IMG/VR virus record: IMGVR_UViG_3300042332_000866
Coordinates: 1-64,000 of that record
Length of the DNA stretch: 64,000 nt
Origin: a virus
Strand: one strand, 5' to 3'
Shown: piece after piece, positions 4,891-26,900 of the stretch
How the letters are laid out: each line of letters starts with the position of its first letter
How positions within the stretch are numbered: position 1 is the first letter of the stretch
Position numbers and translations under genes: made by a program
Notes under the pieces: generated by a model
What the model saw: only the letters and a program-made list of their open reading frames with translations
The model's database searches: none
What the model was told of the DNA's origin: nothing

Positions 4891-6339
4891 ATGAGCGTCT
4901 CCCCTTACGCATCCGAAGCAAAAGTAAACCAAGCTCTTACGGCTATTGGAGCTGAGTTAATCGGTCGAAATGAACAGCAGCTTCTTCAACAGCTAGTCGT
5001 AGCTGCGGCTACAGCGTCTGGAGGCGGTGGGGGAGGCTCAGTCGCTTTTTCGGCAATCACAGGGAGCCCTACAGATAACACCAATCTAGCCGCAGCGCTA
5101 AATGCTAAACTTCCGATAGTTGATCCAAACGCAACAAACAGTTTAACGGTCACGGGTATTGGTGAAGGGGAGTCCCCCATCTTCGCCCTCGTCACACCAA
5201 GAGCAGGCAGCGACGACATTTCAAGGTATTTGCCTAGCCAAGCTCCTGGTATTTCTGAATTCGTGAGTCCCGCAGAGAGCGGAACACTGCTTACTAACAA
5301 CTCAATTATTCAAGGCACGCAGTTAGCTGACACAACGGTTCCCACCGCAAAACTGGAAAACCCAGGCATCGAGATTAACGGGGTGGGAGTTAATCTAGGC
5401 GGGTCGATTACTGTCACAGCTAACTTGCCTACTGGGGGCACCACAGGTCAAATTTTAGCCAAACAATCCAACGCCGACGGCGATGCGGACTGGGAGACGC
5501 CACCTTCACTCGGGCCAGACGTGCGCGTTTACACAGCCGATGCAACGTGGGACAATCCAAGCCCGTCCACAGCTCGTCGCGTATTCGTTCGCCTCGTCGG
5601 CGGTGGTGGTGGAGGCGGATCAGGTCGCAAAGGCGTGGCAGGCGTTAACCGTTTTGGCGGTGGCGGTGCAGCCGCTGGCGCTGTTACTGAGTTTTGGACT
5701 TTAACAACAGAATTAGCCTCCACAAGACCTGTCACTATTGGTGCGGGCGGGATCGGTGGAACAGCAGTTACCACAGACAGCACGAATGGAAACTCCGGAA
5801 CGGCTGGTGGAGATACTAATTTTGCAGGGGTAACAGCTATCGGCGGCGCTTTTGGAGTAGGTGGAGGATCAAGCTCTGGCACTGCTGGAGCAACTACTGC
5901 TAACTCATGCGTATCTGGAGTCGCTGTTGCAAATAACGGCTCAGGTGGAGCAGGTGGCGCTGTTGCTGGCGCGGCAGGAACAACAGTTAATACCCTCACC
6001 CCAACTGGAGGCGGCGGAGGTGGTGGACTAGATACCTCAAACACTAACCGAGCTGGAGGCACTGGCGGCCCTATGGGTGCAGCGGCAATTATCACGCTCG
6101 CAGGCGGCACAGCCGGACTTTCTGGAGGCGGCAACGGCGGCAATGGCAACGATAACCGAGGCTCAGGCACAGGTGGCGGTGGTGGCGGCTCAAACAATCT
6201 AGGCGCAGGCGGAAGGGGCGGCAATGGCGGCGGTTTTGGCGCAGGCGGCGGCGGCGGTGCTGCTGGAACTAATATCGTCGGAGACTCTGGAGCTGGCGGA
6301 AATGGCGCCCAAGGTTACGCGCTCATTATTACTTACTAA
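4891..6339 (+). CDS. Glycine-rich tail fibre protein
   Basis: This 482-residue protein has the shared SPYASEAK anchor (residues 1-45), a central phage-fibre region containing NAKL and GGTTGQILAKQSNADGDADW (about 185-204), typical of fibre shafts, and a glycine-rich distal domain (about 225-482) beginning FVRLVGGGGGGGS. Such domains form the receptor-binding tips of many phage fibres by polyglycine-II packing. The glycine codons vary, so the repeat is kept at protein level. It forms a unit with the two short paralogues upstream. The proline-rich open frame on the opposite strand is a shadow. Confidence 0.85.
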   Translation: MSVSPYASEAKVNQALTAIGAELIGRNEQQLLQQLVVAAATASGGGGGGSVAFSAITGSPTDNTNLAAALNAKLPIVDPNATNSLTVTGIGEGESPIFALVTPRAGSDDISRYLPSQAPGISEFVSPAESGTLLTNNSIIQGTQLADTTVPTAKLENPGIEINGVGVNLGGSITVTANLPTGGTTGQILAKQSNADGDADWETPPSLGPDVRVYTADATWDNPSPSTARRVFVRLVGGGGGGGSGRKGVAGVNRFGGGGAAAGAVTEFWTLTTELASTRPVTIGAGGIGGTAVTTDSTNGNSGTAGGDTNFAGVTAIGGAFGVGGGSSSGTAGATTANSCVSGVAVANNGSGGAGGAVAGAAGTTVNTLTPTGGGGGGGLDTSNTNRAGGTGGPMGAAAIITLAGGTAGLSGGGNGGNGNDNRGSGTGGGGGGSNNLGAGGRGGNGGGFGAGGGGGAAGTNIVGDSGAGGNGAQGYALIITY

Positions 6340-7405: not shown

Positions 7406-8389
7406 ATGACTAAAGCCGAAATCGTTAGATCCTATCTTGAGCGTTTTCCTAATACAGAAAACCTCACACTTGCCAAGGTTTTGCATAAAGAGTTACCCAA
7501 GGTTTTTCTATCGCCCGAATCGGCTCGCGACATTGTGCGGAGGCTGCGAGGTGCAAAAGGGGACTACCACAGCAAGTACACCCCGGATAAATCAGCCTTT
7601 AAGCCGCTTGGCTGGCAGAAAGATGTCATGCCTAAGACGCTCGCAAGAACACGGGAGCCAATCGTTTTGAGCGGGGCCTTAAAGGTTCTGATTTTGTCAG
7701 ACATCCACATCCCGTATCACGACGAGATTGCAGTCGCTGCCGCTATCGCGCACGGCAAAAAGAAAAAGCCGGACGTGATTATTCTCAACGGTGACATCGG
7801 TGACTTCTATGGCGTGTCCCGTCACGACAAAGACCCACGTCGCTCGCTTGCTGATGAGTTGGACGCCATTCGCCAGTTCTTATTCCACCTCCGCAAGCAG
7901 TTCCCAAACGCCCGCATTCTCTACAAAATCGGAAACCACGAAGCGCGGATGGAGATGTTTCTGATTAAGAATGCTCCCGTGCTTCTCGGAGTTTCAGACT
8001 TCGAGCTTCCCGTGTTGCTTAAATTTGATGAGGCTAGGATTGAGCTTGTGCCATCGCTGACACTCATTCGACTCGGCAGCCTGCCAATTTACCACGGGCA
8101 TGAACTACCTCAGGGTATGTCCTCGCCAGTCAATCCAGCCAGAGGAATATGGATGCGCGTTCAGGAATCGCTTATTTGCGGCCACTGGCACCGAACAAGC
8201 GAGCACACTGAAAGCACGGGGCTAAACAAAAAACTCTCATCCTGTTGGAGCACTGGGTGCCTCTGCGATTTGACTCCCGACTACGCTATTGTGAATCGCT
8301 GGAATCACGGCTTTGCATGGGTGGAAACGCAGGCCGATGGCAACTACGAGGTGACTAATCACAAGATTATTAACGGGAGAGTTTATTAA
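7406..8389 (+). CDS. Calcineurin-like metallophosphoesterase
   Basis: The 327-residue protein carries the metal-binding motifs of the family in order: LSDIHIPYHD (about residues 95-104), LNGDIGDF (about 127-134), KIGNHEARME (about 174-183), YHGHELP (about 231-237) and GHWHRTSEH (about 259-267). The N-terminal 60 residues form a helix-turn-helix-like domain (AKVLHKELPK, SARDIVRRL), as in phage phosphoesterases annotated as DNA-associated. The substrate is unknown; DNA or nucleotide phosphodiesters are possible. Its place in the lysis and fibre region is odd for a nucleic-acid enzyme. Confidence 0.85.
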   Translation: MTKAEIVRSYLERFPNTENLTLAKVLHKELPKVFLSPESARDIVRRLRGAKGDYHSKYTPDKSAFKPLGWQKDVMPKTLARTREPIVLSGALKVLILSDIHIPYHDEIAVAAAIAHGKKKKPDVIILNGDIGDFYGVSRHDKDPRRSLADELDAIRQFLFHLRKQFPNARILYKIGNHEARMEMFLIKNAPVLLGVSDFELPVLLKFDEARIELVPSLTLIRLGSLPIYHGHELPQGMSSPVNPARGIWMRVQESLICGHWHRTSEHTESTGLNKKLSSCWSTGCLCDLTPDYAIVNRWNHGFAWVETQADGNYEVTNHKIINGRVY

Positions 8390-8404
8390 CAATCATCAAT
8401 CAAT

Positions 8405-8962
8405 ATGATCCCTTCATCTACCCCTAAAGCCAGTTTGGTTCGTATCAGCAAGGCTATCTCCAAAGCGAAGCTGACCGATAACGTCATCCTTGTCGGGGTT
8501 CGTGGTTACTACAAAGACACGATGGGTAAACCAGGCGTTAATGATCGAGGTATCTACGATGACGCTCTTTTTATCGTCTCACCAACCCACTTTTCAGCTT
8601 GGAATGCAAACACCGACCCTTCTATACACCGTCAAGGTATTGCCAGCCTTGTTACTGGAGTGCATCGTTATCGCCGCGGCAATCATGGTATCAGTCGTCC
8701 TGGAGGTGGGTATCCAGCTTTTCGTCCCGCTACGAAAAATGAAGAACTTCCTGTTGTCCGCGACGGAGTAACTAATCCAACCCCCGGAGTCGCTATCAAT
8801 ATTCATAAAGGATCTCGGAATAGCACCAGCAGTGAAGGCTGTCAGACAGTTCCTCCGCAGCAGTGGGACTCATTCTACGCAGCGCTTAGCGGGGAAATGA
8901 AGCGGCACAACGTCAAAGACTTTCCCTACCTGTTAATCAACGAGAGTGATTTACCATCTTGA
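8405..8962 (+). CDS. Putative endolysin or peptidoglycan-active enzyme
   Basis: The 185-residue protein contains NIHKG followed by a Ser-Ser-Glu-Gly-Cys-Gln-Thr segment (about residues 135-150) and an earlier GVHRYRRGNHG segment. This His-then-Ser/Gly/Cys arrangement resembles L,D-transpeptidase (YkuD) or related cell-wall folds with an SxGC active site. It has no signal peptide, so a holin would be needed for export, and holin candidates lie 1.5 kb upstream. The lysis role is inferred from motif and context. A fibre-tip hydrolase is possible. Confidence 0.5.
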   Translation: MIPSSTPKASLVRISKAISKAKLTDNVILVGVRGYYKDTMGKPGVNDRGIYDDALFIVSPTHFSAWNANTDPSIHRQGIASLVTGVHRYRRGNHGISRPGGGYPAFRPATKNEELPVVRDGVTNPTPGVAINIHKGSRNSTSSEGCQTVPPQQWDSFYAALSGEMKRHNVKDFPYLLINESDLPS

Positions 8963-8995: not shown

Positions 8996-11900
8996 ATGTC
9001 CGACGCCATCAGCGCCAAAAAGCTACTCCCGCCACAGAGAGTTCCATTCACTCCGCTTTCGACGGACGTTTTTGTCGTCGAACAGTTCAATGTCGTCCAG
9101 TCTCCGAATGACAGCATTCCTGCGTACGGCACAGCCCACGATACGATCAGTAAACTGAAGTCGTGGCCGAATCATAAGTTCTGTCATCAGACTGATCCTG
9201 ACGAGCAAGGTAACTACCAGCGGGTTTATGTTGCCGACCAAGGCACGCAGCACCTTTATAACTGGGAGACTAGCGACGCTCCTGACTGGCCGACGATCAC
9301 TCAGACATTCATTGTTCCGAGAGCGACCTACGTCTTCCGCCCAACCACACCCGACACGACTTACCCACCACCACCAAGCGGGAACGTCAACACGACAGGC
9401 TACTCGATAACCAGCGTCGAAGAACAACGGATTGGAGAGCCAAGACTCGACAGTCTTTATGTAGCAGTCAAAATTACTCGGGAGAACGTCGCACTGACAC
9501 AAGTCCGCCGCTACGTCGATCTAGACACCAACACCGTTCAAGAGGAGACAGTTCAGAAAGTCCCAGCTGGAACTTCTGGTTCGGCGGTCGGCGCATCAGG
9601 CACCTACACAGATGTCTCGCCGCTGAACTCATACTGGTCCACGTCCTCAACCAAAAAAGCTCAAGGATTAGCGGGTAATGCCGTTCTTGGAGTAGCTTCC
9701 CGAACGATGTATTACCGGGACAACTACACCTGGCCCAGAGTTTTAAACTACATCGACATCCAGCCTATCTTGGCAGACCCCAGCGATATTTATTCGCCTG
9801 CAAGAGGGTTCGCTTGGAGACCTGTTTGGCTAGCGGATGCTTTTGACGGGCCGTGCAACTACACTCTTGTCGAGCGGTGGACGTTGGCGAAACCGATCTT
9901 TGGCGGCAACCCAAGCTGGAACACGACGACTGGAGGCAGTCCTGATATTCCTGAAGAGACGCCAATGTTAAGGCAAGAGATCGTCTTCAACGGGGTCGAT
10001 TTAAATATCAATATTCCCGCCTGTCTGCACCGGGAGATTCAGATCTGGGACACTCAGTTCTACGGCAGCTACCCGGCTACAACGCCGACAAACTGGCCTG
10101 CAACTGTTCTAGCTAGGGTAACTATATCCCCGGATCAAGGCGGCTGGTTGACCCGCATGTTCTACGTTGATTCTCCCGATAGCTCAGGAGTGGCTACTGG
10201 AATCGACCTAGCTCAGACCTCAGCAACCGCTAATACCTTTACGCTAACTTGGTCGATAGACGCCGCTGTCCCCGCAGGGACAATCAAGCTGAACGTAGCT
10301 ACGGACCCAAGTTTTAGTAATGGATTCCTATCCGGGTATCAAAATCTGACGGTAACAGGCACGACGATTCAGGTTTTAGGGGCGGCAAGAGGACAGATTT
10401 ACTATGCCCAAGTGTCGCGTGGAGGGGTAAAGTCCAACATCACTGTGTGTTTGACAGACCCACAACCTGAACTGTCTGTTACTAAGAGCAAACAGAACTT
10501 GCTGTCGGGCGGAACTCTAGCAGTAGGTTCAGCCGAACTAGGAGCTTCAGTATCAGATACCATAACACTTGAAAGTGTTGGTCTTGAAGCGCTCACAGGC
10601 ATAAAAGCCTTAATAGCAGATATTCCGCTAGACCCAGATTCAAGCGCAGGCTCATTTAGCATCACAGCACCTCCAGTAACGCTTTCTCCGACCACAACAG
10701 CGAACCTAAATATACAGTTCACACCCAAAGCCGTAGGTTCTAAGACGGCTAGGCTGACGATCACTTCGAGCGATGCTGCTTCCCCCTACACGCTAACGCT
10801 GACAGGCATCGGAGTTGCCGCAGAAGTTCAAATCGAGCAACCTGTTGGAAACATCTTAGTAGATGGTTCCAGCACCGTTGATTTCGGCACAGTTACAACT
10901 GGAAGTGCAACTAAGACTTTCCGAATCACTAACATCGGGAATACAACTCTTCGTTTGATTGAAGCTACCATAACTGGGGATAATGCTGATGACTATACGT
11001 TAACTACTCCGATAGCTTCGACAGAACTAGCTCCTAGCGCCTACGAAGACTTTATCGTAACTTTCGACCCAGTAGTGAACGCTAACGCTAGCGAGGCCCG
11101 CATAGCCACACTCTCAGTCACCAGCTCTGACGGCGATGAGAATCCGTTCACAGTATCTCTGACAGGGGTTTCAGACAGTCCATCTGCCCCAGGAGCGCCG
11201 GATCTCACTTACAACCCGAATGCAAACGGAACGATATTAAGTGCTGCGGTGCAGGCAGATGGAGAGGTTATCGTGGTGGGCGAGTTCACAAACATCGTCT
11301 CGACAGCGAGGAATTACATTGCCCGACTCAATACAGATGGGACACTCGACGCCTTCAACCCGAATGCCAACGGCATCGTTAGGTGTGTTGCCATTCAGGA
11401 GGATGGAAAGATAATCGTTGGGGGCGACTTCACTAACATTGCTTCTACCGCTCGAAACTACATCGCTCGTCTCAATACTGATGGGACCATAGATGCGGGC
11501 TACAACCCTAGTGCAGATGGCTCAGTGTATTGTCTTGCCATCAAAGAGGACGGAGAGTTAATTGTCGGCGGCGGGTTCGCCAATATCGGCGGTGGCGCTA
11601 AAGCCTATTTAGCTCGCCTCAATACTGATGGGACGTTGGATGCCGCATTCACTTCCGAAGTCGGCACTGTAACAAACCCTGGGGCAGTCTACGGTGTTCA
11701 AGTTCTGAGTGATAACCGCGTGGCTATTGTTGGAGACTGGTACGACACTGGAAATACAACTACCACGACGACCACAACAACTACGACTACTACGACTACT
11801 ACGACTACTACGACCACTGAGGAGCCAACTACTACGACTACTACGACTACTACGACCACTGAGGAGCCAACTACTACGACTACTACGACTACTACGACCA

Positions 11901-12094
11901 CGGAGGAGCCAACAACTACAACTACGACTACGACGACCACGGAGGAGCCAACAACTACAACTACGACTACGACGACCACGGAGGAGCCAACAACTACGAC
12001 TACTACAACCACGGAGGAGCCAACCACCACGACGACTACTACGGAAGAGCCTACAACTACTACGGAAGAGCCGACAACTACAACACCTCCATGA
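8996..12094 (+). CDS. Large tail fibre, N-terminal half, with mucin-like Thr/Glu/Pro tail
   Basis: This 1032-residue protein has an unrecognised beta-rich N-terminus (1-480), two choice-of-anchor-D Ig-like modules (about 490-725, with TLTLTGIGVAAE and DFGTVTTGSATKTF signatures), three delta-60 repeats (about 735-905, each ending in a form of ARLNTDGT), and a low-complexity tail (about 920-1032) made of Thr runs broken by Glu-Glu-Pro. The last delta-60 unit stops mid-repeat (IVGDWYDTG), and the gene at 13505 resumes at the matching point. It overlaps the next gene by ATGA. It is probably an adhesion fibre. The truncated repeat suggests gene splitting by insertion. Confidence 0.8.
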   Translation: MSDAISAKKLLPPQRVPFTPLSTDVFVVEQFNVVQSPNDSIPAYGTAHDTISKLKSWPNHKFCHQTDPDEQGNYQRVYVADQGTQHLYNWETSDAPDWPTITQTFIVPRATYVFRPTTPDTTYPPPPSGNVNTTGYSITSVEEQRIGEPRLDSLYVAVKITRENVALTQVRRYVDLDTNTVQEETVQKVPAGTSGSAVGASGTYTDVSPLNSYWSTSSTKKAQGLAGNAVLGVASRTMYYRDNYTWPRVLNYIDIQPILADPSDIYSPARGFAWRPVWLADAFDGPCNYTLVERWTLAKPIFGGNPSWNTTTGGSPDIPEETPMLRQEIVFNGVDLNINIPACLHREIQIWDTQFYGSYPATTPTNWPATVLARVTISPDQGGWLTRMFYVDSPDSSGVATGIDLAQTSATANTFTLTWSIDAAVPAGTIKLNVATDPSFSNGFLSGYQNLTVTGTTIQVLGAARGQIYYAQVSRGGVKSNITVCLTDPQPELSVTKSKQNLLSGGTLAVGSAELGASVSDTITLESVGLEALTGIKALIADIPLDPDSSAGSFSITAPPVTLSPTTTANLNIQFTPKAVGSKTARLTITSSDAASPYTLTLTGIGVAAEVQIEQPVGNILVDGSSTVDFGTVTTGSATKTFRITNIGNTTLRLIEATITGDNADDYTLTTPIASTELAPSAYEDFIVTFDPVVNANASEARIATLSVTSSDGDENPFTVSLTGVSDSPSAPGAPDLTYNPNANGTILSAAVQADGEVIVVGEFTNIVSTARNYIARLNTDGTLDAFNPNANGIVRCVAIQEDGKIIVGGDFTNIASTARNYIARLNTDGTIDAGYNPSADGSVYCLAIKEDGELIVGGGFANIGGGAKAYLARLNTDGTLDAAFTSEVGTVTNPGAVYGVQVLSDNRVAIVGDWYDTGNTTTTTTTTTTTTTTTTTTTTTEEPTTTTTTTTTTTEEPTTTTTTTTTTTEEPTTTTTTTTTTEEPTTTTTTTTTTEEPTTTTTTTTEEPTTTTTTTEEPTTTTEEPTTTTPP
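11757..12090 (+). repeat. Tandem trinucleotide-type array encoding Thr runs with EEP spacers
   Basis: ACT/ACG/ACC/ACA codons form about 330 bases of near-continuous threonine, punctuated by GAG-GAG-CCA spacers that become closer toward the 3' end. A 42-base unit is repeated almost exactly twice near 11820-11905. Thr codons vary elsewhere, so selection for the peptide is likely. Such an array is prone to slippage and length change. Confidence 0.95.
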
Positions 12095-12678
12095 TCCCTC
12101 TTGATAGCGTTCCTCCAGCCCGACCTTACACAGAGAACAGTGAGCACAGCCTTCCTTGGCATACTCACTTCATAGGTCAGCACATGCAGCACAATTATTG
12201 GCTTTACGCCATTATCGACCGTGTGATGATGGCGAACCCACAAATCCGCAGCATAGTGGAGTTAGGGACGGGAGCAGGAGCTGTTTCCACGGTATTTGGT
12301 CTGTGGGGTATCAAAAAGGGAATGTCTGTGCTGACCTTAGACAACGTGATTCGGCACGACACCAAGATCCTTGCCGCGTTGAAAGTCCGTTTTCGCCAAC
12401 TCGACATTTTCAGTGAAGATGCAGCTAACGAGATACAAGGTTGCGTCGGAGACTCCCCAACTTGGCTATTCTGCGACGGAGGTTTCAAAGGTAAAGAACT
12501 GCAAACCTTTTCTCCTAGTCTACCTAAAGGCTCTATTATCAGCGCTCACGATCTCGGCGTAGAGTTCAAGCACGACTATCACGCAGCTGCTCTTTGCCGA
12601 GAAGGCGTTATCGAACCGTACCGCCCTGAGTGGTGGATGGAGAATAACATCCAGTTAGCGATTTACAAAAAGCTATGA
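12091..12678 (+). CDS. Class I SAM-dependent methyltransferase-like protein
   Basis: The 195-residue protein has the methyltransferase motif I (IVELGTGAGAVS, about residues 54-65), an acidic motif II equivalent (VLTLDN, about 79-84) and a DGGFKGKE segment (about 130-137) as in CmcI or cephalosporin-hydroxylase-like small-molecule methyltransferases, which often act on sugars. It overlaps the poly-Thr fibre gene and the glycosyltransferase by ATGA on both sides. It probably works with the glycosyltransferase, for example by methylating a glycan. The substrate is inferred. Confidence 0.75.
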   Translation: MIPLDSVPPARPYTENSEHSLPWHTHFIGQHMQHNYWLYAIIDRVMMANPQIRSIVELGTGAGAVSTVFGLWGIKKGMSVLTLDNVIRHDTKILAALKVRFRQLDIFSEDAANEIQGCVGDSPTWLFCDGGFKGKELQTFSPSLPKGSIISAHDLGVEFKHDYHAAALCREGVIEPYRPEWWMENNIQLAIYKKL

Positions 12679-13508
12679 AATTAACGATCTCTATGGCGGT
12701 TTATGACGATTTCGATGGTGTTTTCTTCACCATCCAGTCGTTACGTATGCACCACAATCTTCCTGCCGATACAGAGTTTGTGGTGATCGACAATAATCCC
12801 GTCGGCCAAAATTCTGAAGCCACAAAAAGATTCCTGAAGGCGATCCCCAACACTAAACTCATTGAAGAAAAAAGCCGGAAGAGCAGTTTCGTCAAATATG
12901 ATGCCTTTAAGCACGCAACAGGTGATGTCATCCTCGGCCTTGATTGTCACGTCCTCTTGCAGACAGGTTTTATAGACTCCCTCTTAGCTTGGTGGGAGAA
13001 CAACCAAGGAAGCCCTAACCTACTCACAGGCCCACTTCTTTACAACGACCTTATTTCTAAGTCCTCCCACTTGTCGGAGACATGGCGCGGCAACGACTTT
13101 GGCACTTGGGCCACGAATAGCGAGGCTATGGAGACAGGAGAACCATTTGAAATCCCTATGCAAGGGATGGGTTGTTTCTCCTTTTGGAGAGCTACCGCGC
13201 CCCACCCCAACCCGGATTTCCGGTGCTTTGGGGCCGAAGAGTGGTACATGGCCGAACGCACACGTCGCAACGGTGGACGAGTTATATGTCACCCTCAGAT
13301 GGGCTGGATGCACCGATTTAATTGGCCCCCTCGCACGTTTCCGATGGCACTCAACGACAAAATAGTGAACTACTATCGAGGCTGGTTGGAGCTGTATGAA
13401 GACGTTAACCGTCCACGTATGCAGGAGATGACCCAACATTGGTTAACGCTCATTCCGCAAGACAAACTGGACGAACTGATTAAAAAAGCTAAATTGCCTC
13501 CCGTATGA
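12675..13508 (+). CDS. Family 2-like glycosyltransferase
   Basis: The 277-residue protein begins with a GT-A nucleotide-sugar fold: LTISMAVYDDFDGVFFTIQS (residues 2-21), VVIDNNPVG (about 36-44), and a DxD-like LDCH after GDVILG (about 87-97). The acceptor-side WYMAERTRRNGGR segment (about 192-204) fits the usual catalytic helix. It lacks a signal peptide and membrane helices, so it should act in the cytoplasm. Wedged between two fibre genes and behind a poly-Thr tail, it probably glycosylates the fibre. That role is inference. Confidence 0.8.
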   Translation: MKLTISMAVYDDFDGVFFTIQSLRMHHNLPADTEFVVIDNNPVGQNSEATKRFLKAIPNTKLIEEKSRKSSFVKYDAFKHATGDVILGLDCHVLLQTGFIDSLLAWWENNQGSPNLLTGPLLYNDLISKSSHLSETWRGNDFGTWATNSEAMETGEPFEIPMQGMGCFSFWRATAPHPNPDFRCFGAEEWYMAERTRRNGGRVICHPQMGWMHRFNWPPRTFPMALNDKIVNYYRGWLELYEDVNRPRMQEMTQHWLTLIPQDKLDELIKKAKLPPV

Positions 13509-16500
13509 GTATCCCTAACCGAATCGCCGTCCTTAATTCTGATGGGACAACTGACACCTCTTTCGCCCCCGGAGCAGGTTTGGATGCCGCAGGATACAGT
13601 GTCCAGGCTACTCCTGACGGCACGGTAATCGCAGGCGGTGCCTTCAATATGGTGAGTGGTTCAGTACAAGCTAAACTGGCTTTCTTTGATGCTGATGGTG
13701 CCCTTCAAGAGGGTACACCGACACCCAACAACACCGTCCGCACCCTCGCACTGCAAACAGACGGATCTGTGATATTCGGCGGGGAGTTCACCAACGTCAA
13801 CGGCACAACTCGTAACCGAATTGCCCGTCTCGAAAGCGACCTGACACTAGAGTCTGCCTACAATCCCAACGCAGGAGGCACCGTGTATGGGTTGCTCAAC
13901 CAAGAAGACGGAAAAACCGTCGCTGTTGGAGCCTTCACGACCGTGGGAGGAATAACCAGAAACAGGATTGCACGGCTCTATAATGACGAGGCACCTAAAA
14001 CACTTTCGGTTCTGTCAGTCGATCTTATTCAATGGTTGCGAGGAGGTTCATCTCCAGAAGTTGAGCGTGTCTCCTTTGAACTTAGCACCAACGGCGGAAC
14101 GACGTACGCAGACATCGCAGGAGTAACCACTCGGATCGAAGGCGGCTGGCAGCTTGTGCCCGCTTCCTCTTTGACTGGTGACGGGATTATTCGCGCCAGA
14201 GCCTACCCGACAGACTCCCACAGCGAGGGTATTCTTGAAGACACGGTCACGTTCGACGTAAATCCCGAGATCGAAGTGTCGCAAGGTTCCACAATCCTAG
14301 TAGATGGCTCCAGCACCGTCACTTTCGACGACACCCAACTCGGATCATCCCGAGACGTGACTATAACCATTACGAATACCGGGCTCACACACCTTGATCT
14401 GCAAGGGGCGACTAAAGTTCATCTTACAACCGGAACACAGTGGTCAGTAGTTTCCCAACCGACTTCACCTATTGAGTTCGGCGATTCAGTCAATTTTACC
14501 CTTCGTTTCACTCCAACTTCCGCAGGAGCTAAAACAGACACCGTCACTATTGACAACAGTGACCCTGATGAAGACCCATTCACGTTTGGCCTGAGTGGCG
14601 AGTGTCTCCCAGGCCCCGGCTCGGTCGATAATTCATGGCAGGTGACGCCTAATGCTACAACCTATGCTATAGCTTTGAATGCCACTGATGACACCCGGAT
14701 CGGCGGCGAGTTCACAACGGTCAATGCGTTGAATCGGAAGCGTTTTGCCAGTATCCGAGACACAATACCAGTATCAGTTTTGTCTCAGACAGGTAGTATA
14801 GATAATGGTGTCGTATTTTGCTTCTGCCAGCTCCCAGACGGTAAAGTGCTGGTCGGTGGAACATTCACATCGGTAAATGGTGTCACACGTAATCGTCTAG
14901 CTAGGTTTACTTCAAGCGGAGAGTTCGATGCCTCTTTTAATATAGCTGCAAATGGTGACGTACGTTCACTCGCTTTACAAGCTGACGGCTCAGTTATCGT
15001 GGGGGGCTTTTTTACCACTTTTTCAGGTGTGGCAAGACAAGGCTTAGCTAAAATCACTCCAACAGGCAGTCTCGATAACAGGTTTAACCCAGTATCTTCT
15101 TCTTCCTTTATTTATAACATTGCCACACAAACAGACGGAAAAATACTAGTCTGTGGATTATCAGGAATTGATCTAGCTTTTCCAGCTATACAACGGTTGA
15201 ACAGCGACGGGTCGAGAGATTCTACCTTCGAGGCCAACGCAAACAGCACTGTTTGGACATCTTTGGTAGCTGCAAACGGACACATCTATGTTGCAGGCAG
15301 CTACACTAGTATCGGAGGAGTCAGCAAAAGAGGTCTTAACCGACTCAATTCAACAGGAGCACTTGATGCAACCTTTAGCGAGGTTCAAACTGCGGCTGTA
15401 TCTTTAGCTTTGCAATGCGACGGAAGGTTGATTGCAGGTAGCACCTCTGCGGGTTCCTTGTCTTCTACTGAAAGATTAGTTCGTCTCAGCGCGACCGGAA
15501 CTAATGACTCTACATTCGTAGCTACCGCACGAAACAACGTATTCGGTCTTGGGTTACAATATGACGGTAAGGTAATTGTTGCAGGTAATTTTACCTTAGC
15601 TGGAGGAACTACTAAATATGCCTCACGCCTAATAAACGATCTTGGCGCATCTGTATCTTCCCTATCCGTAGTAAGCGAAACAGAAGTTCAATGGCTGCGT
15701 GGAGGCACAGCTCCAGAAACTCAAATAGTGGTTTTCCACTATAGCCAAGACGCAGGTATAACTTGGACGAGTCTAGGACAAGGGACACGTATAGCCGGAG
15801 GATGGAGGCTGTCTTCAATAGCTCTCCCTATTTCTGGCCTACTTCGAGCACAAGCATACATCCCTTGCGGTTTGTACAACGGCAGCACGTCAATTCACGA
15901 AGAGCAGGTGACGTTCTCCAATTTACCTTCGCCAGACCTTGTTGTAGAGTATCCAGTAGGTACAGTCATCGCGGACAACGGAACAGCAACACTGCCGGGA
16001 ACCCTAGCTCAACAGACATCCGACGCAATCATCACTTTGCGTAATACCGGAAATGCTAATCTGAGCAGCATCGTAGCTTCCTTTGCGGGAAGCGCCGGAG
16101 ACTTCTCTATTGTCAGCGCTCCAGCCTCCTCGGTGGCCCCCAACGGAACAACAACGCTGACGTTGAGGTTCTCCCCGCCAACTAATGCTATCGGCGTGAA
16201 GGTGGCAGCAGTTAACATCACCTCTAATTTGCCCGGAACAAAAAATCCCTACAAAGTCAATCTTCGGGCCAGCGCCGTAGGCGTACCTATAGCTACGACC
16301 GGATCTAGCTCAGCCCCAGCTTCAGGACAAAGGACTTTGAACGGAACTTTCCGAGCAAACCACGACACAGCTTCCGCTTACTTCCAATACAAACTAGCTT
16401 CTGCAACCACTTGGACTAATTCAAGTGCTACGACAATATCTGGATTTACAGATGTGCCTGTATCACAGGTAATCACAGGGCTTACTCCCGGACAGGCTTA

Positions 16501-16594
16501 CCAATACCGAGCTATCATCTACAATGCGGTGAATGCAGGTCAGTTGCCTGCCTCACCATTCGTCGGAAGCACCTCATCCTTTACCGCGACATGA
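13505..16594 (+). CDS. Large tail fibre, C-terminal half, with delta-60 and choice-of-anchor-D modules
   Basis: This 1029-residue protein starts inside a delta-60 repeat (NRIAVLNSDGTTDTSF) with no N-terminal anchor. Delta-60 repeats (1-160) are followed by a module with QWLRGG (about 177) and a choice-of-anchor-D domain (about 258-370); the same series is then repeated: delta-60 (375-715), QWLRGG (about 727), and anchor-D (about 820-925). The C-terminus (about 935-1029) is fibronectin type III-like (ITGLTPGQAYQYRA). It overlaps the glycosyltransferase by ATGA. It continues the architecture broken off in the 8996-12094 fibre, so both may come from one ancestral gene. Confidence 0.8.
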   Translation: MSIPNRIAVLNSDGTTDTSFAPGAGLDAAGYSVQATPDGTVIAGGAFNMVSGSVQAKLAFFDADGALQEGTPTPNNTVRTLALQTDGSVIFGGEFTNVNGTTRNRIARLESDLTLESAYNPNAGGTVYGLLNQEDGKTVAVGAFTTVGGITRNRIARLYNDEAPKTLSVLSVDLIQWLRGGSSPEVERVSFELSTNGGTTYADIAGVTTRIEGGWQLVPASSLTGDGIIRARAYPTDSHSEGILEDTVTFDVNPEIEVSQGSTILVDGSSTVTFDDTQLGSSRDVTITITNTGLTHLDLQGATKVHLTTGTQWSVVSQPTSPIEFGDSVNFTLRFTPTSAGAKTDTVTIDNSDPDEDPFTFGLSGECLPGPGSVDNSWQVTPNATTYAIALNATDDTRIGGEFTTVNALNRKRFASIRDTIPVSVLSQTGSIDNGVVFCFCQLPDGKVLVGGTFTSVNGVTRNRLARFTSSGEFDASFNIAANGDVRSLALQADGSVIVGGFFTTFSGVARQGLAKITPTGSLDNRFNPVSSSSFIYNIATQTDGKILVCGLSGIDLAFPAIQRLNSDGSRDSTFEANANSTVWTSLVAANGHIYVAGSYTSIGGVSKRGLNRLNSTGALDATFSEVQTAAVSLALQCDGRLIAGSTSAGSLSSTERLVRLSATGTNDSTFVATARNNVFGLGLQYDGKVIVAGNFTLAGGTTKYASRLINDLGASVSSLSVVSETEVQWLRGGTAPETQIVVFHYSQDAGITWTSLGQGTRIAGGWRLSSIALPISGLLRAQAYIPCGLYNGSTSIHEEQVTFSNLPSPDLVVEYPVGTVIADNGTATLPGTLAQQTSDAIITLRNTGNANLSSIVASFAGSAGDFSIVSAPASSVAPNGTTTLTLRFSPPTNAIGVKVAAVNITSNLPGTKNPYKVNLRASAVGVPIATTGSSSAPASGQRTLNGTFRANHDTASAYFQYKLASATTWTNSSATTISGFTDVPVSQVITGLTPGQAYQYRAIIYNAVNAGQLPASPFVGSTSSFTAT

Positions 16595-19637: not shown

Positions 19638-20969
19638 ATGCCTAAAACCCCTAGTTTTGAAGAGATGTTTGGAGTTGGCAGCGTGCCGATTGCGAGCTAT
19701 TTCAACCTGCCGGAAGGCGCTTCAGCAGATACTCGTTTCTCGCCTGAAGCTCGCGCTCTGCTCGGACAAGGGGAGGAGTATGCTCGCGAACAAGCCGCTA
19801 GAGAAGCGGAACTCGCTGCCGAAGAACTGCTTGGCGGAGCGGCTGGAATGTCAGATGAGCAGATCCAGCAACAGTTGATCCAGAATCCGAGGATGTTTGG
19901 GACTCAGGCAATCCAGCCGTTGAGTGGCTACATGCAGTATCGGCAGAGCACATCTCCAATGAGTGACGAGGTGCTTGGACCAGTCATCGAAGCAAAAATC
20001 ACCGATCCCTACCATAAAGAGCGCTTCCGCAACCGGATGCTGCAAGATGGTTTGTCGGCAAACGATGCTTACGACGCTTACCTCACGGACGAGTACAATA
20101 ACAAGTTCGAAGTGCAGCTGGCTGAAGCAGGTGTCCCAGAGACTGAGTATGGGAAGCTGAAGACAGCTTCAGGTAAGTTCGACCCCGTCGCCGTGCCTCG
20201 CGCAGTGGCAGCAGCGAAAGCGGCTGTTAAGCTGAGCGGAACAGGTAAAAAAGTTGCTCCTATAGATGAAGAAGTCGAGTTCCTCAAAGACGCGATTGAG
20301 CAACGCCAGAAGATCTTTGAAGCAACGGGCCGAGCCGACAAACTAGCTGAAGATCCAGTGATGGCTGACTATATCACTCGTTATGAGAGAGCTGCTACGG
20401 AGAAACTTGCGGGGTTACGACAAGCCCCTAAAGCAAAAGTCACAGAACTTCCTAGCACAAGCGGAGCACCCCAAGTTGCCCCTACAGCAGCTACTCCTAC
20501 ACAAGGTTTCAGAACGCCAGAAGAACGTCTGAAAGCAGTAGCTGAGGCGGAGAAAGAAGCTCCTGTAAAACAAGCTATAGATAGCGCTTGGACTCAACAG
20601 AAAGCAAACTTAGCAGAACAGATACGGAAAGTCTATGGGGATAACCCAGAAGACATTGTGTTAGCCGCCAGAGCAGTTCTCAGCGGTGAATCTGATCCTG
20701 AAGCTAATCCTGCTGAAATCGAAGGTGGTCAAGCTAGCTACCTAGATTACCTTCTTCGTAAAACAGGTCGCAAAGCTAATGAAACAGCTTTTGAGGAACC
20801 TGGGAACAGACGAAAAACTCTTGGTATAGGAACTCAAAAAGTCAAAAATGACGAACTTCTACAAGCGTGGGCAAGAGATGTCCTAGCTCTAGCAGCTCAG
20901 TTACAACAATCTCCTACAACAACTCAAAAACCCGCTGGCAATATCAAAGGTTTGCAGCAGATTGAGTAA
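19638..20969 (+). CDS. Internal virion protein candidate, helical
   Basis: The 443-residue protein is helical and charged, with Gln/Ala-rich blocks and long runs with coiled-coil character (about 55-90 and 205-265). No catalytic motif is visible. It ends in a TAATG overlap with the giant virion protein gene, so the two are likely made and packaged together. Confidence 0.65.
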   Translation: MPKTPSFEEMFGVGSVPIASYFNLPEGASADTRFSPEARALLGQGEEYAREQAAREAELAAEELLGGAAGMSDEQIQQQLIQNPRMFGTQAIQPLSGYMQYRQSTSPMSDEVLGPVIEAKITDPYHKERFRNRMLQDGLSANDAYDAYLTDEYNNKFEVQLAEAGVPETEYGKLKTASGKFDPVAVPRAVAAAKAAVKLSGTGKKVAPIDEEVEFLKDAIEQRQKIFEATGRADKLAEDPVMADYITRYERAATEKLAGLRQAPKAKVTELPSTSGAPQVAPTAATPTQGFRTPEERLKAVAEAEKEAPVKQAIDSAWTQQKANLAEQIRKVYGDNPEDIVLAARAVLSGESDPEANPAEIEGGQASYLDYLLRKTGRKANETAFEEPGNRRKTLGIGTQKVKNDELLQAWARDVLALAAQLQQSPTTTQKPAGNIKGLQQIE

Positions 20970-23900
20970 TGCCAAACTACCTTGTAGAACTTGACGATGG
21001 ACGAAAATTTCGTGTAGAAGCTGAAACACCTCCGACAACAGAGGAAATTTTAGCCTATCTACAAGCTCCCGCAGCTGCACCCGCTGCCGACCAACCCGGT
21101 CGTCTCGGCAGTTTCGCTTCCAGCGTAGGTCGAGGCGCGTTGTCTGTCGTCCCAGGCACGGTTGGAGGAGTCGGCTACGCTCTAGGCTCGGACACACTGA
21201 CAGGCGCTGCCGACACCATCGAAGGTGGTATCAACCGAATGCTTCCAGTGAATCCTGAATATCAAGACGAGTTCTTGATGAAGGCAGGCGGAGCTATTGG
21301 TCAAGCTGGGGGCATGTTGGCTACAGGCGGCTTGCTAGGTGCGGCGGGTAAAGGTCTTGCCTTGTCCAGAGGTCTTGCTCAAGGTGCCGCAGCCGCTAAA
21401 GGTGCCGACCTAGCTAAAAACGTGCTTCTAGGCACTGGGATCGCACAAGGCATTCGCGGAGGCGGTCAGGAAGCTGAGAAGTACGGTCTGCAAGGTGGGT
21501 CTGCCTACGCCCGTGCTCTTCTTGGAGGAGCCATCGAAGGTCTGTCAGAGCGCTACTTGTTTGGAATGGGAACAGAGCTTGCACCTGTGAAGAAACTTCT
21601 CGGTGACGCTGCGGAGAAAGGCGTTGGCGGTATCGTCAAAGCCGCAGGCACAGAAGCAGGTGAAGAAGCCGCAGCCCAGATTGGCGGTAACGTCGCCACC
21701 TCTATTCTTGCACCCTACGGTGTTCAGACTCCAGGCGCTTTTGAAGGCGCTGGAGAAGCTGCTCTACTCGGCGGTATTGCTGGTGGAACAATCGGAGGAA
21801 TCAACGCACTTATCCAGCCATCACCCACTATCGAAGGTGAAACGATGGTTCCACCAGCAGGCACCGAGCCACCAGCTACTGCTGCCCAAGAACCCGAGGA
21901 CGACTTCGGACTGGCCGCGTTCCAACAGGAGATTGAACAGATCGTTCAGAATCCAGACCCTATTGTTCCTCTCCAGCAGACAATCAATCAAGCCGCTGTC
22001 ACATCAGTTAAAGCTAAAGCTGACTTGTTGCCTGCGACCGCAGCAGTGATCGAGGCTGGCGGATTGGCACCAGCACCGACACCTGTTGCAGCGCAACCAG
22101 CGGTTGTCGCACAAGCCACCAGAGAGGAACAGCTTGCACAGCTGAGAAATAAAATTCGGCTCGGATTAAGCGCAAAAGAGCGTGCAGACATGGAGCAGCA
22201 ACTCGCACAGGCAGAGGACGAAGGTGTCCTATCTGATGTATTTGCTGAAGAGCGTCGTAAAGCCGTGCAACGAGAAGACTTCCTTCGCCGTCAACGAGAT
22301 CTCGAAGATGAACGCCAGAGACTCGCCGACCAAGGTATTCTCAAAGACGTATTTGCTGAAGAGCGTCAAAAAGCTATTTCCCGTGAACAACCCACCCCAA
22401 CAATCGAGGAAACCACCCCGCCCGAGCAGCCAATACCAGCAGTCGAAGAGGCTCCTGCGCCTACTCAGCGGGCCATCGCTGAAGAAGACAAAGCCGAGCT
22501 TGCAGAACTGGAAGATTTGATGAGCCGCCGTGGACAGGCGCAGAACAAAGTCAAAGGGGTGAAGTTCTCCAAGAAAGACGAAGCCCGGTTTCAAGAACTC
22601 GGAGCTAAGCTCCGTCGTTATTTTTTCGAGACGGTTGACCCAGTCAATGACCCGGTTGTGGGGGAGGACATCTATGACCAACCCATTCGCCAGTCTGCGC
22701 AAGGGACATACTACACGGTTGAAAAAGGTCGAATCCGCACAGGCCCATGGTTCAAACTCGACCCTGAATATGTACGTCAACAGGATGAGCTTCTCCGTCA
22801 GGAAAAGGCGGTAAAAGAGGCTCCTGCGCCTGAAATCACCTCCGAAGAATTTCCGAATGTCGAAAATGTGATTGACGAGCCGGGGGCGGCTGAGGTAGTT
22901 TCGGGGATGGAAGAACTAAACGAGACCTACCAGCAATTCAGAGATCGTAAATTGCGGGAACTTGAGAGTGAAGATACTTTTCAAGACTTAGAAGCATCAG
23001 AGAAAGCAGACATCTTAGATGATTACGCTGACTTAGGAACCTGGGGAGAATCTTTGGTCAAAAGAGCCGAAACAGAACAACTCAGCGAAGAGGTGCTTGA
23101 TGATTATGTCGATAGATTTGGATTAGATACCTATGCCATTCGTTTTCGTGGAAAAGCGGAGCAGCGGCAATATAAGCCAAAAGCAGCTAGACAACAGCTC
23201 GGTAAAGAATCTTTGGATGTCAGAACCAGAGGACAAAAAGCGGCAGACACTCGAAAGGCGAAGCAAGCTCAACCCCCAAAAACCCAACCCGCCGCCGAGA
23301 AACAGGCTGCGGAGACGCAGGGAAAGAAAGGTCGCGCACTACCGACCTTCTCTCCTCCACCGAAAGAACCTTTCAAACCTTCTGCGGAACGGTTTACTCA
23401 ATTCTACGTTGACGCAGGTATCCCCGAAGCAACAGCCGCCAAGAACGGGGCAAAGCTGATGCAAGTGGTTGAGACAGGGGAGTGGTCTGATTTACTCCAT
23501 CCAGACAACAAAAAGTCCCGAGCTATATGGGAGACTTGGACTGGTAAGAAGTTGCCAAAGGGACTGGCTGCCAGTAAAGCTGCCGTCGCTGAGTTCGTCG
23601 CTGAGTATCGAGCTGAGAACTTCACCACACCTGCTTCAGAACTTTCGGACACAGAACTCAATGCAGAAATTCTGCGTCTTGCCGAGCAGGGAATGAAGCC
23701 ATCCGCTTCGCAGACTCTCAAAGACCGGGCTTTGGAGCTTTCAAAAGAGTTCCAACTTCGCCAAGAAACAGGAAAGGCGAAGGCCGAAGACTCTTCAATC
23801 AAAACTCGTAGAGCAGCCATTGCTCGAAAGGCACTAGCCTTCACAGGTGGTAAAGGAACTGTGGGCAACCTAGCAGGAGATTCCTTTGCGCAGATGCGTG

Positions 23901-26900
23901 CTGATCTTCTGTCGGAGATAACAGGAACGAAGGTGCCTAAAGCAAAAGCTGGTATCAACGCTTTGATGAAAGCATTCTACCAAGAGTTCGGCATCGCGTC
24001 TGACACTGAAGCTGGGATGCAGAAAAAGTTGTCTCAAGCTCTTCAAGAGGCTGTAGCACCCACCGCCCCAGCCCCACAGGCCGAGCAGCCTGCGCCCCAG
24101 CGTGACACGTCGAAGCCTGAGATACCCGCTGAATTGAAGGAAAAAGGAGTGTTGAGTTTTGTAGAGAAGAGCAAAGATGCGGAGACCTTCGACAAATGGC
24201 TCACAGACCAAGGTGTTTCTGATGCGCAAATAAACCCTGAAAAAGGGGACGGTGGAGCTGGCTACTTGTATTTAGATCGGGGGACTGAAAAAGTAGGACA
24301 GTTTTCATGGAGTCCGAAATCAAAAACCGGAGTGGATTCACGCTTAGTTTTCAAACTACCTGATGGCAGGAACGTCGTCTGGCTTATAGAGACACAGAGT
24401 ATCTACGAGGTCGATCCAACCAAGATTGATCCGAATCCTTACTTCAAAGAGGAGACTGCTTTCGAAAAGCCATCAGAACAGATGTCTCCTGAAGAGGCTT
24501 GGGCAGAAGAACAATCCGTGATGGGAAAAGCAGCGTCAAAAGCTGATACACGCATGGTTCACGAAATGGATGTGAACACAGCTCTCGGTAAAAAGAAACC
24601 AGTCTCCAAAGCCGCCGTGGACGCCTACGGCATCACTCTCCCAGAAGGCTACGTCGCCGAGGGCGAGCTTTATGTGTATCGTCCGGGAGGTGAGGTGAAG
24701 GCGGATAAAACTGAGCTAGCCCAAGTAGGTGATGAAGTAACGTGGGTAGCTGCGGGGAAAGAGGCTCAAGGTACTGTTTACGCGATCCGAGGTGATTCTG
24801 CAGACATCGACTATTTCGGACCAAAAACTGTCCCGCTATCAGATTTGAGTATTGTCCGCAAATCTGGTCGCAGGATTGCTCAAGAAAAAAGAGACGCAGA
24901 ATCAGCTAAATCTGAATCACCGCAAAAAACCCAAGAACAAGAGCAACTAAAACCGAAACGTAAATTCACTAAGGATGAGGTAGCTTCTTTGGAGCAAGGA
25001 AAGACACCTGAAGGCTGGACGTTTGATAAAGACAGATCATCTACAGAAGGTGTTTTTATCACCGATAAGAAAGGTCAGACGTGGAAAGTCGAGGTGCAGT
25101 TTTCACCGACTAAAATACTAACCTTAGTCAAAGGTGACGAAACCTACTCTTTCAGTGCGCAACCTACAGCTCCGGTTGAGTTCGGTTCCACCAACGCTAC
25201 TATCTCCACTCCAGAAGGCTACCAAGCCGCTAGAAAAAGGGTTGCCAAAAAGATCGGAGGTCAGACGAACGTCGGCGGGATGCTCGACCCTGTTCTCTTG
25301 AAGGATATTATCGCCATCGGCGCTTTCTACATCGAAGGTGGGGCACGCAGTTTTGCATCATTCTCCGCCAAGATGATCGAAGATTTAGGGGAAGGTGTGC
25401 GCAAATACATCCAGCCTGCCTACGACGAGCTACGCAAACGCACAGACATTGACACGACGGGGATGGACCCGGTAGAAGCCGTGGAGACAGCTCCTGTGGC
25501 TGAAGCGCCACCAGCGCCTGCTCCTGCTAAAGTAGAGGCCGAAGCACCTAAAGCACCTAAAGCGGCTCCGGCCCAAGCTGCTCCGAAACCTGCTCCTGCC
25601 GCAGCAGCGGAGCCAGGCGTTGTCCCCATTGCCAATGACCCAGTTGACGTGCAACGGGCAGCACTTGGTCTTCCTCCAATTATGCGAATGACAAAGGAAG
25701 CCTACACATTCCAGCAGATGTGGTCTGATGCTGAGGCGGCAATGGCAGCTAACCCAGAACGAGGTAAAACACTCGTCAATACGCTGAACGATAAACCTCG
25801 CAATATCAGCGCTCTGGAAGATGCGATCCTTCTGCGTGAACGTGTGAACCGAGTAAATGCTCTTGACCTCGCTATGATCGAGTTCAACGAAGCTCCGAAA
25901 GGCAACAACGAAGATCAGAGAAAAGCGCTGGACAACGCTATCACGTCGCTCACGGAACTCGACAACGCTCTTGCGGTAGCAGGCACCGAGCAGGGACGTT
26001 CTTTGAATGCCCGCAAGATGCTAGCGAGACAGGACTACACACTAGCTAAGATGATCTCTACGCTACGTGCGGCGAACGACGGAAATTTGTCAGAGGCAGA
26101 TATAGCTACGGTCACACGTCTTCAGAAACAGCTCGAAGAAACTCAGAAGAAACTCGCAGAAGTGGAATCTGGGCAAGCTGATCTCTTAGCAGACCGTCTA
26201 GCTGAAGCTGAGAAAGTCGCTTTTGAAGCAGGTCGTCAGGAAGTTCTTAAAGACATCGAAGACCGCGCTAAAGCGGACGCTGCGAAGGTAGCTGAGATGC
26301 AGAAACGTAAGGCTGAGTATCTGGCCGCAAAGAAAGAAGCTGCCAAGACTCCAAACAAATGGGAAGAAATTCGTGCTGCTGCCCGAGCTAGAAACGCTGA
26401 ACTCCGCAGCAATCTTTACAGTGACGTGGTGCTCGTCAAAGCCGCTTCGATGGCTGTGAACGATGTTATCATCGGCGCTACCTACATCGCTGAAGGCGTC
26501 ACTAAGTTCGCTGACTGGGTCTCCAAAATGCGTAGTGAGGACATCAACCTCACGGATGACGAGATGCAGCAACTTTTCAAAGAGTCTAAAGCATTCGATG
26601 CAGGTGAAGAATTACCTGCTTCAGAAGCTCCTCTCAAGACTCGGAAAACAAAAGCTCCAGCTATCGACAAGGTCAAAGCTATTGCGGCTGATGAAGAGCA
26701 ACTCGACTCCCGCACGGTTTACAACCTGGTTGTGGAGAAGATGAAGAAACGGGCAGAGGAGAGCAAAGCTGCCAAGCTGCTTGAAATGAGTCCTGCTGAC
26801 CTGACCAGCGTCATCAGTGAAGTCACTGAAGACGTTCGAGAGTTCTTCCCCGACATCACTGAGCGTGAAATCCGTGACTTGTTCTCTGGCTACGGTAAGA

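Follow-up and report, generated by a model that had tools for sequence, protein, structure and literature searches.

The window analysed here is a 64,000-nucleotide stretch (positions 1 to 64,000) of the 65,516-base IMG/VR virus record IMGVR_UViG_3300042332_000866. Since terminase, DNA polymerase, primase and exonuclease were assigned among the other genes of the record by PHROGs, its source is a tailed phage. Our subject is a run of four genes, fib1, MT-A, GT-A and fib2, in which two fibre-like genes enclose two enzyme genes and all four are chained by three ATGA overlaps (12091, 12675 and 13505). The first-pass annotation had read this run as a fibre gene that stops in the middle of one delta-60 unit and resumes at the complementary part, with a Thr/Glu/Pro tail, a methyltransferase gene and a GT2-like gene joined by ATGA overlaps in between. 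Both points were borne out, the latter by the open reading frame coordinates and the former by the repeat analysis described below. The delta-60/DUF5122 profiles matched above cut-off, PF17164 at 121.5 and 225.1 bits (cut-off 27) and TIGR02608 at 90.7 and 127.8 bits (cut-off 76.5).

We built a Hidden Markov Model (HMM) of the propeller blade from intact delta-60 units. Fib1 contains three full blades and a partial fourth, which matches from model position 6 and whose pre-tail residues reach position 31. Fib2 begins with the complementary part of a blade (match at positions 35–47, with Met1 on position 31 or 32), followed by three further blades. The two partial arrays together make 3 + 1/2 + 1/2 + 3 = 7 blades, and the intact second array of Fib2 also has seven; the count for the split array is given as a sum only, while the second array was seen with both the HMM and an AlphaFold2 (AF2) model. 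Loop length was measured as the number of residues between the G-x-F and I-A-R-L motifs. It was 10 in 69 of 84 intact units, and the broken loop, with both halves joined, measured 9–11 residues over ten complete loci. No part of the unit is missing or repeated at the break, which falls within blade 4, in the loop connecting its second strand to its third. In the AF2 model of Fib2 (pLDDT 83.8), the strands of the second propeller form seven groups, and the first propeller is represented by three blades and an N-terminus of lower certainty; a fold search with the whole model returned generic multi-domain Ig/propeller matches at low TM-scores.

Table 1. Features of the split fibre locus, in window coordinates.
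Feature	Position	Strand	Evidence
fib1: clade-specific N-terminal region, two ASH/choice-of-anchor-D domains, 3.5 delta-60 blades, poly-Thr tail	8996..12094	+	
Two ASH/choice-of-anchor-D Ig-like domains, approximate boundaries	10493..11170	+	family matches
Split propeller, blades 1-3 (Fib1 residues 739-883)	11210..11644	+	blade HMM
Blade 4, first half (Fib1 residues 895-920, end IVGDWYDTGN)	11678..11755	+	blade HMM, loop count
Thr/Glu/Pro tail, 112 aa (86 T, 16 E, 10 P), predicted O-glycosylation acceptor	11756..12091	+	
MT-A, SAM-methyltransferase-like, GTGAG motif; exchangeable cargo	12091..12678	+	
GT-A, polypeptide GalNAc-transferase-like glycosyltransferase (D90-x-H92, H213)	12675..13508	+	
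fib2: half-blade 4, blades 5-7, LSV, ASH, intact second propeller, LSV, ASH, Fn3-like end	13505..16594	+	
Blade 4, second half (Fib2 residues 1-20), best conserved stretch of Fib2	13505..13564	+	
Split propeller, blades 5-7	13565..13987	+	blade HMM, AF2 model
Intact second delta-60 propeller of 7 blades (internal paralogue)	14636..15649	+	blade HMM, AF2 model
LSV domain, second copy (VQWLRGG...)	15650..15934	+	query that found the Verrucomicrobiaceae homologues

Searches with GT-A, Fib1 and Fib2 recovered relatives from a small clade of uncultured phages. Ten loci were complete, representing about seven independent lineages. All ten are ordered fib1, cassette, fib2 and are broken at the same point. 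Because this split point is common to independent contigs whose proteins are 43–92% identical and which carry three different classes of cassette, it reflects neither chance nor assembly error.

The first-pass annotation had also proposed that a module was inserted into one ancestral fibre gene, and had suggested looking for an uninterrupted homologue spanning both halves. No such homologue was found in phages, either among viral contigs (queried with Fib1, Fib2, the g18694 neighbour and the LSV domain) or among annotated phages, and a search of genome contigs for prophages with the g18694 neighbour returned none; the delta-60 proteins of L047–L060 were distant and generic. Uninterrupted homologues were found in Verrucomicrobiaceae. 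A 2056-residue protein from a metagenome-assembled genome of this family (L090) runs without interruption through seven blades, LSV, ASH, seven blades, LSV, ASH and an Fn3-like end. LSV-type domains occurred in 30 of 68 Verrucomicrobiaceae genomes, and the arrays preceding them had seven blades in eight of ten cases, eight in one and one in another; these counts come from short fetched loci, exclude an array running off its reading frame, and include L090 again as one of the eight. Fib1 and Fib2 taken together share the 7-blade array, the LSV–ASH order and the overall domain order of these bacterial delta-60/DUF5122 choice-of-anchor-D proteins, of which L090 has two such modules; unlike the single bacterial polypeptides, the phage counterpart has its first propeller divided at blade 4. 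Together with the exchange of the intervening region as a unit, the complementary loop, the 7-blade sum and the bacterial domain order support the insertion proposal, and an exchangeable module was very probably inserted into one ancestral array. A Verrucomicrobiota host or gene source would fit the bacterial homologues.

We then compared the regions between the two halves. L005 and L040 are 93% identical in Fib1 and 81% in Fib2, yet both their tails and their enzymes differ: L005 carries a TTAPP tail with two GT2-type enzymes, and L040 a PTPDVS tail with GT8 and a methyltransferase–GT29 fusion. At identities of 97% in Fib1, 97% in GT-A and 93% in Fib2, L006 has an EEP tail and Methyltransf_25 as its variable enzyme, whereas L007 has an APP/S tail and an FkbM fusion. 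The converse was also seen, with methyltransferases 78% identical between L003 and L006 although Fib1 is only 60% and Fib2 49% identical, and FkbM genes 87% identical between L007 and L042 although Fib1 and Fib2 stand at 64% and 49%. In a third class, represented by L038, the tail is of the Ser-Pro type and the enzymes are of the GT9 and Capsule_synth types. As judged from these comparisons, the cassette of tail plus enzymes is exchanged as one unit. GT-A accompanied poly-Thr tails at seven of seven loci and other tails at none of three (Fisher p = 0.008; 0.048 with close relatives merged). Every enzyme family found in the cassettes is, or resembles, a glycosyltransferase or methyltransferase, MT-A only weakly: its methyltransferase matches were weak and came through its homologue in L004 (FtsJ/Methyltransf_23), and it had no match in the PDB. 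The small methyltransferase belongs to the module of the window, as had been suggested, but only as variable cargo, with a different enzyme in its slot (12091) in most relatives.

In loci of the PTPDVS type, an HNH_3 endonuclease gene lies antisense between cassette and fib2 (L040:5912-6457 and L039:9391-10239, both on the minus strand) and is a possible homing-type mobiliser of the cassette. Elsewhere, MT-B-type methyltransferases of other large phages (L133:250-7340, L135 and L139) follow a conserved protein of ~306 residues, of unknown family, and structural-looking genes; in L133 these genes contain TTTTT stretches and a GT2 gene comes after MT-B. A poly-Thr gene lay no more than three genes upstream in 4 of 63 loci of MT-B relatives against 9 of 606 other open reading frames, a comparison that is not clean and is not part of our main evidence.

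Polypeptide GalNAc-transferases (GT27) are the animal enzymes that initiate mucin-type O-glycosylation, and their acceptors are Thr or Ser in Thr/Pro-rich peptides. GT-A (277 residues) is a Glycos_transf_2 protein by Pfam, and its AF2 model (pLDDT 88.2, pTM 0.88) retrieved polypeptide GalNAc-transferases as all 50 of its 50 best PDB fold matches (best E = 2 × 10⁻¹⁴, TM-score up to 0.74 on the query). A weak sequence-profile alignment covered the whole catalytic region of GT-A against GalNAc-T10 (2d7i; E = 0.006 for the whole sequence and 0.03 for the stretch) and placed D90-x-H92 on DSH and H213 on the distal His of HIYR; all three residues are invariant in 12 sequences. GT-A thus resembles the known enzymes in fold, in its DxH and distal His, and in the Thr/Pro-rich, mucin-like sequence that adjoins it. 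It differs in consisting of the catalytic domain only, a family search having found no C-terminal ricin-type lectin domain, and in its 14–18% identity; its activity is a prediction. This modelled fold suggests that phages carry mucin-type initiating transferases. The fold and the exchange of the module as a unit fit the earlier idea that the enzymes decorate the tail, and we hold with good confidence that the cassette would glycosylate it.

Finally, we assessed whether the two halves may rejoin. Residues 2–20 of Fib2 had a mean pairwise identity of 0.86, versus 0.45–0.66 in other parts of the protein, and its twelve best conserved 19-residue windows all lay at the N-terminal end. Agreement at 4-fold degenerate sites was 0.40 in this region, near the 0.32–0.37 found elsewhere, which indicates selection on the protein rather than on DNA homology for recombination. 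Neither family matches nor the blade HMM revealed an N-terminal docking domain of Fib2's own. Complementation in trans with the half-blade of Fib1 best explains, from the sequences at hand, both this conservation and the missing docking domain, and we lean towards reassembly of the two halves. The insertion does leave two genes, as first described, although the two products may come together again as a single propeller instead of working separately.

We propose the following model. An ancestral virion fibre gene would have encoded a 7-blade delta-60 β-propeller. A cassette entering blade 4 at the loop that links its second and third strands would have turned one gene into two, giving the first protein a low-complexity Thr/Ser/Pro tail as its new C-terminus and placing glycosyl- and methyltransferase genes behind it. 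The products would most likely rejoin in trans, the first strands of Fib2 completing blade 4 and so attaching Fib2 to Fib1, with the tail hanging out of the rejoined propeller. In the poly-Thr types, GT-A would put the first sugar on tail Thr residues, which the variable enzyme, a second glycosyltransferase or a methyltransferase, might extend or cap. Recombination between the conserved flanks would swap cassettes and could thereby give related phages different surface coats. As a whole, we regard this as the likely explanation of the locus.

Its strongest competitor accepts the split and the exchange as real but keeps the halves apart, as two independent fibre proteins whose partial propellers are closed otherwise, for example as homo-oligomers. 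There are indeed two separate reading frames, and blades 5–7 stay folded in the AF2 model of Fib2 alone (block pLDDT mostly 73–90). On the other hand, Fib2 residues 1–20 are less confident in isolation, this same half-blade is the best conserved part of the protein, the loop sum fits an intact unit, and Fib2 lacks its own docking domain; we therefore consider independent fibres unlikely. A functional rival concerns the enzymes, which could be passenger genes (morons) acting on host surface polysaccharide or another virion protein rather than on the tail. It is the main functional alternative: action on host surface polysaccharide has been proposed for cyanophages, whose polymorphic glycosyltransferase clusters were interpreted as producing diversified outer polysaccharides (PMC7824862), and GT-A relatives in other phages lie mostly away from Thr-rich genes. 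Tail class and enzymes nevertheless switch together while the flanks are unchanged, GT-A is present wherever the tail is poly-Thr and absent from the other tail types, its fold is nearest to enzymes with Thr/Pro-rich peptide acceptors, and ATGA coupling ties the enzymes to the tail gene, making passengers distinctly improbable.

The exact complementarity of the halves could also arise if an intron, intein or sequence artefact split one gene whose parts are rejoined at the RNA or protein level. Here, the insert is wholly coding, with its own starts and stops overlapping as ATGA; Rfam gave no intron match up to E 0.1, and no splicing-type domain was among the family matches of the four proteins. 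Tail and enzymes moreover vary among relatives on many independent contigs, and the probability of this explanation is close to negligible. Promoter and terminator scans were at or below chance. It is also very doubtful, if slightly less so, that the two fibre genes were always separate and captured delta-60 repeats independently, with the half-units as coincidental array edges. Delta-60 repeats are widespread, their arrays expand easily, and unsplit phage versions were not found; against this stand a sum of exactly seven blades, complementary half-units in every relative, and a domain order matching uninterrupted bacterial proteins.

Several points weigh against our model. The comparison sample is small, and we infer the virion location of Fib1 and Fib2 from gene neighbourhood alone. 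The insertion event itself was not observed, no unsplit phage gene having turned up, and the strong conservation of the Fib2 N-terminus could serve another contact. Pairing between spacer motif and second enzyme is looser than that between tail class and GT-A, MT-A occurring with both EEP and APP tails, and the distant GT-A relatives count here as well. Among those relatives, an unrelated phage (L030:2-8101) is an exception: behind the gene of a Thr/Gly/Pro-rich protein it has a run of genes resembling glycosyltransferases, of which two are related to GT-A; the contig ends on the upstream side.

The gene upstream of fib1 is variable: it encodes a phrog_3000-type protein in the window (8405-8962) and in L003, whereas L061 has Amidase_3 and deoxynucleotide monophosphate kinase genes (L061:7576-8133 and 8178-8714), and a kinase-like gene precedes fib1 in further relatives too. 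A Gly-rich protein (4891-6339) weakly matched Gly_rich_2 (E = 0.0019), and its N-terminal part had two partial matches in L003. Within the structural gene block, a 2786-residue protein without PHROG match (20969-29329) is possibly an internal virion protein.

Tail-fibre tips undergo mosaic exchange among phages, and the present locus is similar in pairing conserved flanks with a middle or end part that can be exchanged. What is swapped here, however, is not a receptor-binding tip but a low-complexity tail together with its enzymes, and the insert interrupts a folded domain. To our knowledge, there is no other case of acceptor and enzymes travelling as one unit. In mycobacteriophages of cluster O, three tandem glycosyltransferases and an O-methyltransferase modify capsid and tail tube, as stated in PMC11600133 (citing Freeman et al. 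2023). Both systems bring phage-encoded glycosyltransferase and methyltransferase genes together in a group, with a virion protein of the phage itself as proposed target; in the present clade, this group lies among structural genes. Here the module interrupts a fibre gene, brings along its own acceptor tail and is exchanged as a unit, and the modification is predicted. In the open-access literature, we found no report of a split delta-60 propeller or fibre, phage GT27-like enzymes, poly-Thr tails, or joint movement of tail and enzymes. That phage transferases glycosylate virions is already known, while a split propeller with matched tail-and-enzyme cassettes appears to be new.

In its most specific form, the model describes a two-gene fibre whose half-propellers are locked by strand complementation and whose break docks swappable tail-and-enzyme cassettes, yielding varied mucin-like glycan coats begun by a phage polypeptide GalNAc-transferase-like enzyme; the case for this full version is evenly poised. 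A propeller split mid-blade over two conserved genes offers a natural experiment that directly probes domain complementation during virion assembly. Moreover, the genome itself pairs tail types with enzymes, so that the swaps seen in nature may reveal acceptor specificity, which short peptides could test.

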